From contig CALFBP010000007.1 in NCBI GenBank assembly GCA_937951625.1, positions 1 to 64,000 on the forward strand: 64,000 nt of DNA. The letters run 5' to 3'. Positions 1-54,486 of this stretch are shown in pieces. Numbering within the stretch: the stretch's first letter is position 1; each line of letters opens with the position of its first letter. The position numbers and the translations under genes were made by a program. The DNA comes from an uncultured Thermoguttaceae bacterium. GTDB taxonomy: Bacteria; Planctomycetota; Planctomycetia; Pirellulales; Thermoguttaceae. The notes under the pieces are model-generated. The model searched no databases, had not been told where the DNA came from, and saw nothing but the letters and a program-made list of their open reading frames with translations.

Positions 1-214
1 AGAAGTTTTCCACGAAAAAACCCATTGCACCAATCCGACAAATTCGCCGCAGTTTCTCCCCACTTGCACCCGATCAACTGGAGCAGGGCCGCTAAAAAGT
101 TCATCAAGCACGTGAGTGCATTAACAGCACCCATACCATCACAAGTGACGGAACATCTCGTCCGCACTCCGTTCCCGGCCCACCCATCGCCCGTGGGGAT
201 TGCGGTGCGATGAG

Positions 215-3101: not shown

Positions 3102-3175
3102 CGAGGGCGACGGGACTCGAACCCGCAACCACTGGATCGACAGTCCAGTACTCTAACCAATTGAGCTACGCCCCC
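3102..3175 (-). tRNA. tRNA-Asp (anticodon GTC)
   Basis: The minus strand folds into a complete cloverleaf. The acceptor stem is GGGGGCG with CGCCCTC (one G-U pair), the D-stem is GCTC/GAGT, the anticodon stem is CTGGA/TCCAG around loop CTGTCGA, and the T-arm is GCGGG-TTCGAGT-CCCGT. The anticodon is GTC and the discriminator base is G, the aspartate identity base. CCA is not encoded. The gene abuts its own promoter and terminator, and an integrase remnant lies beyond its 3' end. Confidence 0.96.
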
Positions 3176-22043: not shown

Positions 22044-22072
22044 TTGACAAGCTCGACAAAGGGGCGTATGGT
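22044..22072 (+). promoter_or_regulatory. Predicted cimA promoter
   Basis: A perfect -35 TTGACA (22044-22049), a 17-base spacer and TATGGT (22067-22072). Transcription would start near 22079, leaving a leader of about 226 bases before the cimA start codon. Confidence 0.65.
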
Positions 22073-22124
22073 TTAGGGTCGATGACCCAGAGGGCGAATG
22101 CATTCCCTGGGCAAAGGCTTGGCG

Positions 22125-22208
22125 ATGCTCGAGTTTCCTCGAAAGTCGATGATCGGCGGTGATCTCGGCGCGAAGGGCGCCGGGATTGGCGGGCTGATTA
22201 TTGGCTGA
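22125..22208 (+). CDS. Putative leader peptide of the cimA attenuator
   Basis: An ATG with AAAGG seven bases upstream opens a 27-codon frame within the cimA leader. The peptide is rich in Ile and Leu (four Ile, three Leu) and ends Gly-Ile-Gly-Gly-Leu-Ile-Ile-Gly-stop, with the adjacent ATT-ATT codons at 22197-22202. The stop codon falls immediately before the first arm of the antiterminator hairpin. This is the arrangement of leader peptides in classical amino-acid attenuators. A second in-frame ATG at 22149 would give a 19-residue version. Isoleucine is the end product of the citramalate route, so Ile codons are the expected control codons. Confidence 0.55.
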   Translation: MLEFPRKSMIGGDLGAKGAGIGGLIIG

Positions 22209-22262
22209 GGGCCTCGAGGGCATCGACTGGCCGTGCGACCGAACTAGTCAGCCCTGAGGCCC
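22209..22262 (+). promoter_or_regulatory. Putative antiterminator hairpin in the cimA leader
   Basis: GGGCCTC-GA-GGGC (22209-22221) can pair with GCCC-T-GAGGCCC (22251-22262). The stem can extend inwards through GACT (22225-22228) with AGTC (22246-22249). Its 3' arm is the same sequence used as the 5' arm of the terminator hairpin, so the two structures exclude each other. A ribosome at the leader-peptide stop codon would cover the 5' arm and favour the terminator. Confidence 0.5.
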
Positions 22263-22292
22263 AACGCGGCAGCAGGGTTTTTTTGTTTTTTT
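22252..22292 (+). terminator. Putative intrinsic terminator (attenuator) before cimA
   Basis: CCCTG (22252-22256) pairs with CAGGG (22273-22277) and GCC (22259-22261) with GGC (22268-22270), with a symmetric AG/AG internal loop and a six-base loop. A T7 run (22278-22284) follows at once, then G and another T7. The cimA ribosome-binding GAGG starts three bases after the T-tract, so termination here would shut off the gene completely. Confidence 0.6.
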
Positions 22293-22304
22293 GCGAGGCT
22301 CATC

Positions 22305-23921
22305 GTGCGGCGCATCGAAATCTACGACACCACGCTCCGCGACGGAGCACAAGGCGAAGGGATCAGTTTCTCGCTTCAGGACAAGCTCTTGCTTACCCAA
22401 CGGCTCGACAGCCTAGGCTTCGATTACGTCGAAGGCGGCTATCCGGCGTCGAACCCCAAGGACAGCGAGTATTTCCAGCGCGTCCGGGAATTGGACCTTC
22501 AGCACGCCCGAGTCTGCGCGTTCGGCATGACGCGGCGCAAAGGTACCGCCGTGGAACAAGATAGCGGCGTTTCAGCTTTGTTGGCCGCCAACACGGGAAT
22601 CGTGACTATCGTGGGCAAGGCCTCGGCGTTCCAAGCCGTCGAGGTGATTCGCACAACGCGGGAGGAAAATCTGGAGATGATTGCCGAGACGATCGCCCAC
22701 GTTCACGCGGCAGGCCGCGAGGTGATCTTCGATGCCGAGCATTTCTTCGACGGGTGGAAGGCCGAACCCTCCTACACGCTGCAAACCATTCGTACCGCGG
22801 CCGAGGCCGGTGCCCGCACGATCGTCCTTTGCGACACCAACGGCGGCAGCATGACCGAGGAAATCGCCGCCGGTACTCGAGCCGCCATCGAGGCCTTGCG
22901 GTCCAACGTGCCGGTGGGCATCCACTGCCACAACGATTGCGGCCTGGCCGTGGCCAATTCCCTGGCGGCGGTCGATGCCGGTGCGGATCACGTCCAAGGC
23001 ACGATCAACGGTTTTGGTGAGCGGTGCGGCAATGCCGATCTGCTCGTAGTAATTGCCAACCTGGCGCTCAAGAAGAAAGGCTACCGCGTGCTCTCGCCTG
23101 ACGCGCTGGGCTATCTGACCGAACTCTCACGATACGTTTATGAAATGGTCAACATGAATTTTCCCTCCCGGCAGCCGTATGTCGGATTAAGCGCCTTCGC
23201 GCACAAGGGCGGGATGCACGTCAGCGGATTGGCCCGAACCACGGCCAGCTACGAACACATCGATCCGGCCTTGGTCGGGAACGAACGCAGGATTTTGGTC
23301 AGCGAGCTGTCGGGCCGCTCGAACATCGTCGCCTTGACCACCAAACACAACATTCAAAACGATCCTAAGCTCATGGATCGGATTCTGGCCAAAGTGGTAT
23401 CGAAGGAGCACGCGGGCTATCAATTCGAAGGCGCTCAGGGATCGTTCGACCTGCTGGTGAAGGAATGCGCCGGCACGTTCCGACCTCACTTCGAGCGACT
23501 CAGCTACCGCGTCAACATCGAGACCGAATCGGACGGCCGGATCACCTGCGAGGCCACCGTGAAGATCCGCCTGGGAGACGTGATTCGCCATGAGGTGGCC
23601 GAAGGCGACGGGCCGGTCAACGCCCTCGATGCCGCCCTGCGCAAGGCCCTCAACGGTTTCTTTCCCAACCTGCGGCAAATGCAACTGGTGGACTACAAGG
23701 TCCGCGTCATCAACTCCCAGGCGGGCACGGCGGCGGGGGTCCGCGTGGTGATCGAAAGCCGCGACAGTGGCGATGTTTGGGCCACCGTGGGCGTCAGCGA
23801 AAACATTATCGAGGCAAGCTGGCTCGCCTTGGTCGATAGCTACGAGTACAAGCTCTGCAAAGACGAAGAACAGGCCGCCAGGCTCGCCCCCTCAGTCCAA
23901 CAGGACCTTCAAACTGCATAA
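22305..23921 (+). CDS. cimA: (R)-citramalate synthase
   Basis: The 538-residue enzyme condenses pyruvate and acetyl-CoA to (R)-citramalate, the first step of the threonine-independent route to isoleucine. The HMGL-like TIM barrel (about 1-280) opens with the signature IEIYDTTLRDGAQGEGISF and contains GIHCHNDCGLAVANSLAAV with the metal-binding HxH-type residues. The C-terminal LeuA allosteric domain (about 400-535) contains YKVRVINSQAGTAAGVRVVIE. Length and the sequence after DTTLRDG fit the CimA/LeuA-paralogue group rather than LeuA itself. The start is a GTG with GAGG six bases upstream. It stands alone behind the leader described separately. Confidence 0.92.
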   Translation: MRRIEIYDTTLRDGAQGEGISFSLQDKLLLTQRLDSLGFDYVEGGYPASNPKDSEYFQRVRELDLQHARVCAFGMTRRKGTAVEQDSGVSALLAANTGIVTIVGKASAFQAVEVIRTTREENLEMIAETIAHVHAAGREVIFDAEHFFDGWKAEPSYTLQTIRTAAEAGARTIVLCDTNGGSMTEEIAAGTRAAIEALRSNVPVGIHCHNDCGLAVANSLAAVDAGADHVQGTINGFGERCGNADLLVVIANLALKKKGYRVLSPDALGYLTELSRYVYEMVNMNFPSRQPYVGLSAFAHKGGMHVSGLARTTASYEHIDPALVGNERRILVSELSGRSNIVALTTKHNIQNDPKLMDRILAKVVSKEHAGYQFEGAQGSFDLLVKECAGTFRPHFERLSYRVNIETESDGRITCEATVKIRLGDVIRHEVAEGDGPVNALDAALRKALNGFFPNLRQMQLVDYKVRVINSQAGTAAGVRVVIESRDSGDVWATVGVSENIIEASWLALVDSYEYKLCKDEEQAARLAPSVQQDLQTA

Positions 23922-46892: not shown

Positions 46893-46967
46893 GGTGGCTG
46901 TAGCTCAATTGGTTAGAGTACCAGACTGTGGATCTGGGTGTTGGGGGTTCGAGTCCCCTCAGCCACC
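46893..46967 (+). tRNA. tRNA-His (anticodon GTG)
   Basis: Full cloverleaf: acceptor GTGGCTG/CAGCCAC, D-stem GCTC/GAGT, anticodon stem CCAGA/TCTGG around CTGTGGA, T-arm GGGGG-TTCGAGT-CCCCT. The anticodon is GTG. An encoded G at position -1 (46893) faces C73, the hallmark of tRNA-His. CCA is not encoded. Confidence 0.96.
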
Positions 46968-54396: not shown

Positions 54397-54486
54397 GGAG
54401 AGGTGGCAGAGTGGTCGAATGCGCGGGTTTGCTAAATCCGTGAGGGGCTATAAGCTCCTCCGAGGGTTCGAATCCCTCCCTCTCCG
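54397..54486 (+). tRNA. tRNA-Ser (anticodon GCT)
   Basis: Acceptor GGAGAGG/CCTCTCC, anticodon stem CGGGT/ATCCG around TTGCTAA (anticodon GCT), a long variable arm (GAGGGGCTATAAGCTCCTC) as in class II tRNAs, and T-arm GAGGG-TTCGAAT-CCCTC. The discriminator is G. CCA is not encoded. Confidence 0.96.

Follow-up and report, generated by a model that had tools for sequence, protein, structure and literature searches.

The window, by which we mean the whole stretch of 64,000 nucleotides that was analysed, carries on its forward strand a cimA gene preceded by a leader that encodes a short peptide and is predicted to fold into two overlapping hairpins. The gene product scored 646.7 bits against the TIGR00977 equivalog for citramalate synthase (cut-off 450). 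A first-pass annotation of the same DNA had listed a promoter, a 27-codon leader, both hairpins, a T7-G-T7 tract, and cimA, and all of these parts are present where it placed them; the basis for each is given in brackets.

22044-22072, forward strand: sigma-70-type promoter with TTGACA (22044-22049), a 17 bp spacer, and TATGGT (22067-22072) (sequence)
22113-22117, forward strand: AAAGG, a possible ribosome-binding site for the leader ORF (sequence only)
22125-22208, forward strand: leader ORF of 27 codons plus TGA (22206-22208), its peptide ending in GIGGLIIG (sequence; position and Ile content conserved)
22185-22187, forward strand: Ile codon ATT, where a stalled ribosome is predicted to leave the antiterminator arm fully free (folding, antiterminator probability 1.00)
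22197-22202, forward strand: Ile-Ile codons ATT ATT, putatively regulatory, their spacing from the arm being the conserved one (median of relatives and folding)
22209-22221, forward strand: region 2, 5' arm of the antiterminator, GGGCCTCGAGGGC (duplex energy; covariation in relatives)
22225-22249, forward strand: small hairpin within the loop that separates regions 2 and 3, present in the predicted fold of either state (folding only)
22251-22262, forward strand: region 3, GCCCTGAGGCCC, shared by both hairpins, as the 3' arm in the antiterminator and as the 5' arm in the terminator (alignment A1)
22252-22277, forward strand: intrinsic terminator hairpin of regions 3 and 4 (folding; covariation in relatives)
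22278-22292, forward strand: T7-G-T7 tract of the terminator (sequence)
22305-23921, forward strand: cimA, citramalate synthase of 538 aa with a GTG start at 22305, the putatively controlled gene (NCBIfam TIGR00977)

The leader ORF starts at ATG 22125, with an alternative in-frame ATG at 22098, and contains Ile codons at 22152, 22185, 22197, and 22200. The two codons of 22197-22202 lie at distances of 9 and 12 nt from the antiterminator arm, the median in relatives being 13. The duplex of regions 2 and 3 has a calculated energy of -27.3 kcal/mol, and the terminator stem pairs 22252-22256 with 22273-22277, plus inner pairs; within region 3, GCCCTGAGGCC is near-constant among relatives (alignment A1). 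As to the small loop hairpin, many relatives display similar short complementary stretches, e.g., CCGGT...ACCG. The leader matched no Rfam family at the gathering threshold, and a relaxed search returned only noise (E >= 2). The only Rfam matches in the window are three tRNA genes at 3102-3175 (reverse strand), 46894-46967, and 54397-54486 (both forward strand).

A scan of GTDB genomes yielded 80 related cimA loci with a protein identity of 62-79%, whose titles are those of planctomycetes with few exceptions (two read only "bacterium"). Their upstream DNA revealed the same order of leader parts, with a terminator of this kind in 66 of the 80 and the whole device in most, while in the remaining 14 the leader is missing, truncated, or different. 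Terminators were located by a mechanical search for a strong hairpin followed by a T tract, three of the 66 being assigned by eye. The leader peptides, with a median of 31 residues, end inside the antiterminator arm or just 5' of it. Of 64 loci, 54 have a promoter-like sequence (TTGACN-16..18-TANNNT) no more than 250 nt 5' of the arm; shuffled DNA gave a mean of 0.4 and a maximum of 4. Lacipirellula limnantheis I41 also has the device, its leader being MPAKQPLAMIHPMPYGVVVIGMIIRKVRP-stop. In a variant found at three loci (L053, L065, and L074), the Ile codons of the leader fall into several clusters (e.g., NIVIENIITAGIIIPVRVVSNVIIAT-stop), and the stem is of the GACCTGC type. At L049 and L054, 490-570 nt separate the attenuator from cimA downstream; the interval holds an apparent gene for a four-helix-bundle protein, so the attenuator may govern a two-gene unit there.

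The reading frame of these leaders was chosen by the position of the stop codon alone, blind to isoleucine, and 53 cimA loci met this criterion. Over the last 18 codons of their leaders, 199 codons (20.9%) specify Ile, compared with 65.4 +/- 6.7 Ile codons in dinucleotide shuffles of the same stretches and a largest value of 87 in 1000, although the shuffles were not corrected for the relatedness of the loci. In the other two frames, the common residues do not include Ile. Of the 53 leaders, 44 contain Ile-Ile and 17 Ile-Ile-Ile. Measured from its first base, the last Ile codon precedes the antiterminator arm by 13 nt (median). ATT accounts for 71% of the Ile codons in the leaders and for 24% of those in the cimA genes.

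Both helices were examined in an alignment of 46 cimA leaders. Region 2 paired better with its own region 3 (mean -21.3 kcal/mol) than with that of other loci (-18.5); for the pairing of regions 3 and 4, the means were -23.0 within a locus and -19.9 between loci, and for neither helix was the energy with the own partner equalled in 20000 permutations. The covariation score reached 0.212 versus 0.154 for the antiterminator and 0.262 versus 0.179 for the terminator, values that none of 500 shuffles attained and that lie far above those of versions slid by one to three columns. Relatedness of the sequences inflates these covariation and permutation tests. A stronger argument than the statistics is provided by triple changes across the three regions, because region 3 must fit both partners; examples are GGGCTT / AAGCCC / GGGTTT in L042 and L052, and CGACC / GGTCG / GACC in L021. 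The first-pass annotation had described region 3 as shared by two mutually exclusive hairpins, which the covariation of both helices supports, and had declared beforehand that its reading would fall if either the Ile codons of the leader peptide or the alternating hairpins lacked conservation in relatives; the aligned upstream regions conserve both. As judged from sequence comparison, the arrangement of the window leader is not due to chance, since its anatomy recurs, isoleucine is enriched, and both helices covary.

For folding, the footprint of the ribosome was assumed to end 12 nt downstream of the A-site codon's first base, and only the RNA 3' of the ribosome was used; folding of the whole leader with the ribosome masked and the 5' RNA free was rejected on account of misleading pairs across the ribosome. 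With the A-site at 22185, the predicted probability of the antiterminator in the window was 1.00, at 22197 it was 0.89, and at 22200 the outcome was mixed (antiterminator 0.46, terminator 0.56); with the ribosome at the stop codon, the terminator reached 1.00. This agrees with the earlier proposals that a ribosome finishing the peptide permits the terminator and that one stalled at 22185 leaves the arm free. Of the ATT-ATT pair, where a stall had been proposed to free the arm only partly, 22197 gave antitermination and 22200 the mixed outcome. The position conserved for sensing is that of the last Ile codons, which in the window points to 22197/22200 ahead of the lone codon at 22185.

At equilibrium, the terminator of the relatives is usually favoured even with the arm free, and only 11 of 52 switch; we therefore rejected equilibrium folding of the relatives as proof of a switch. 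Before region 4 has been made, 46 of 53 loci are predicted to form at least seven antiterminator pairs if the ribosome is stalled at Ile, and fewer than four if it stands at the stop. In most relatives, the switch thus rests on the order of synthesis. A 1:2 protector helix belongs to the trp type and is optional, not being present in every attenuator. In a crude test for such a protector or pause helix, arm 2 paired no more strongly with the upstream 78 nt than with shuffled controls (mean z 0.06; below -2 in 3 of 66). As no conserved protector helix was found, an untranslated leader should read through, an inference that is no firmer than this test.

The device would work as follows. RNA polymerase would start near 22079, and a ribosome would translate the leader peptide. 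With plentiful isoleucine, the ribosome would reach the stop at 22206 and cover region 2 (22209-22221), region 3 would pair with region 4, and transcription would end at the T tract before cimA. With charged tRNA-Ile scarce, it would stall at the Ile codons 22197/22200, or at 22185; region 2, left free, would capture region 3 once made, and the polymerase would read into cimA. The anatomy of the attenuator, its conservation, and its codon specificity emerge from the comparisons made here; that the promoter is used, that the ribosome stalls, that transcription terminates, and that isoleucine has an effect is inferred by analogy with the established trp and leu attenuators. Although it rests on no test in cells, our confidence is high that the leader of cimA acts by ribosome-mediated transcription attenuation and senses charged tRNA-Ile.

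Across the genomes of the family, the occurrence of threonine deaminase is almost complementary to that of citramalate synthase. Of 26 family genomes, 4 (G008, G009, G017, and G021) encode a threonine deaminase that passes the TIGR01127 cut-off; G008 and G021 are without cimA, and one other of the four holds only a cimA fragment. The genome of the window (G000) showed no threonine deaminase over that cut-off. CimA is likely the sole source of 2-oxobutanoate in this organism, a claim limited by the incompleteness of the metagenome-assembled genome, and such a role fits isoleucine control, which the first-pass annotation had considered logical for this enzyme.

A covariance model that spans the terminator together with the sequence 5' of it, trained on cimA leaders only, was run on the window's own genome and on 392 genomes of the phylum, and 147 genomes had a match at E <= 0.01. 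For 75 matches the surroundings were read, and tblastn identified the gene that follows as leuA in 28 cases, cimA in 17, and DAHP synthase in 13. The other 17 precede other genes, show no codon bias, and were treated as background. With the leader frame again set by stop position only, the cimA leaders contained 24% Ile, 4% Leu, and 1% Phe+Tyr+Trp, the leuA leaders 38% Leu, 3% Ile, and 2% Phe+Tyr+Trp, and the DAHP synthase leaders 38% Phe+Tyr+Trp, 1% Ile, and 4% Leu. Cognate codons totalled 322, compared with 139 +/- 19 under permuted labels (largest 211 in 10000). Examples are MNLNLLLLQLLLSTPGC-stop before leuA and MNNWQFTFGFYFTYFPSRAEDSL-stop before DAHP synthase. Leu-rich leaders of the same design precede leuA at L113, L120-L125, L127, L129, L131, L132, L134, and L136-L138, and further at L144, L146, L150, L153, L155-L157, and L160. 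CTA makes up 35% (58/167) of the Leu codons in leuA leaders versus 0% (0/314) in the leuA genes. The leader codons thus follow the downstream gene, as codon-sensing attenuation predicts and as neither a ligand-binding RNA nor a plain terminator would. The device is placed at the first committed steps of the pathways. The window's genome itself carries a second attenuator:

G000:C97:17832-17919, reverse strand: putative attenuator before DAHP synthase (L140) (model match, E 1e-7)

Its leader, MGARFAYWSRFYFPRPGRGAGGGL-stop, is rich in Phe/Tyr/Trp, and the DAHP synthase downstream passes NF006421 and TIGR01361. Unlike leuA of other families in the phylum, leuA of the window's genome (L142, G000:C53) showed no such attenuator in the 500 nt read upstream of it. 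Two weak matches in this genome were rejected as attenuators, one on contig C47 that falls within coding sequence and one on C5 without a suitable ORF. Upstream of hisG, ilvB, and trpE in the same family, only 2 weak terminator-like sites were found in 48 regions, so the device is not general for amino acid genes in the family.

Since riboswitches and T-boxes likewise have a terminator and an alternative helix as their expression platform, the leader might bind isoleucine or uncharged tRNA-Ile directly, the ORF being incidental. We regard this as highly improbable: the Rfam searches mentioned above gave no family at threshold and only noise when relaxed, the conserved core consists of the two alternative helices alone without a conserved aptamer 5' of them, and it is the in-frame codons, not the RNA, that change with the downstream gene, the codons preferred in leaders being the disfavoured ones. 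Another conceivable mode of action is on translation or via Rho, for example if the progress of the ribosome hid or exposed the cimA start or a Rho site. The window alone would allow it, as 12 nt separate the end of its terminator from the start codon and structures could touch the start region, but in many relatives the terminator is located 60-570 nt upstream of cimA, too distant to hide the start, and a T tract of at least six follows nearly every terminator hairpin. This mode, too, appears improbable.

Hairpins and short ORFs are common in GC-rich DNA, and a constitutive terminator that ends upstream transcription beside an unrelated short ORF could resemble an attenuator by chance. Next to no credence remains for such a likeness, given that the ORF has its own conserved promoter on its 5' side (54/64 loci), that the exclusive helices covary, that Ile enrichment goes far beyond shuffles, and that the codons switch to match the gene; the comparative data refute it as far as sequence can. 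A ribosome-mediated attenuator before cimA remains the preferred reading.

Beyond the single locus, we favour, with moderate confidence, the view that Planctomycetota own a regulon of leader-peptide attenuators built on one shared scaffold and placed at the first committed enzymes for isoleucine (cimA), leucine (leuA), and aromatic amino acids (DAHP synthase). Its design would be a minimal one of two helices without a protector helix, so that an untranslated leader reads through, and it would imply ribosomes closely behind RNA polymerase. With codons matched to the gene, the signal of each switch may be read from sequence, a handle where genetic data are scarce. Attenuation works only if a ribosome follows RNA polymerase closely, so the device allows the coupling of transcription and translation to be tested directly in planctomycetes. 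A physical separation of the two processes has reportedly been proposed for Gemmata by Gottshall et al. in 2014. The interest of the finding lies in a regulon across the phylum and in the coupled transcription and translation that it presupposes there, if true.

The working principle itself is already known from trp- and leu-type attenuators. Like the proteobacterial trpL, leuL, ilv, and pheL leaders, the planctomycete device has a leader peptide with codons for the end product near the switching arm, a stop codon located within this arm or adjoining it, an antiterminator and an intrinsic terminator that exclude each other, and disfavoured leader codons; leuL uses disfavoured CUA codons. It differs from the proteobacterial ilv leaders in that the device of the window governs the single gene cimA and not an ilv operon, and from trp-type attenuators in that no conserved 1:2 protector helix was found. 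A resemblance in sequence to the proteobacterial leaders would not be expected.

A literature search limited to open-access papers found no description of a planctomycete attenuator, nor of a cimA attenuator. The first-pass annotation had known of no such device in this phylum, which holds within that literature; the device is, however, not a lone one but one of a family. Leader-peptide attenuation is hereby extended to a phylum for which no description was found and to citramalate synthase as a target. A "Rhodopirellula-1" RNA motif has been listed as a candidate cis-regulatory RNA for Planctomycetes and Proteobacteria in the portion of the source available to us (PMC2864571); it is absent from Rfam, and on that partial basis identity with the cimA device is neither claimed nor excluded. 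The Firmicute hisS/hisZ leader peptides, with His codons and a terminator, demonstrate that such peptides may arise beyond Proteobacteria and Actinobacteria, outside of which the same paper of 2010 stated that no leader-peptide system was known until then (PMC2965389); unlike the planctomycete device, they govern aminoacyl-tRNA synthetase genes.

Corynebacterium glutamicum, which belongs to a different phylum, has attenuators in the leaders of ilvBNC, leuA, trpE, and aroF (aroR), and cimA is not among the targets reported (PMC4046766, PMC11802643). Its ilvBNC and trpE have leaders, whereas ilvB and trpE of the window's family are without terminators, apart from the 2 weak sites in 48 counted together with hisG. 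In its leaders of leuA, with Leu codons, and of DAHP synthase, with Phe-Tyr-Phe, the same two partner targets are found as in the planctomycetes (PMC4046766, PMC11802643).
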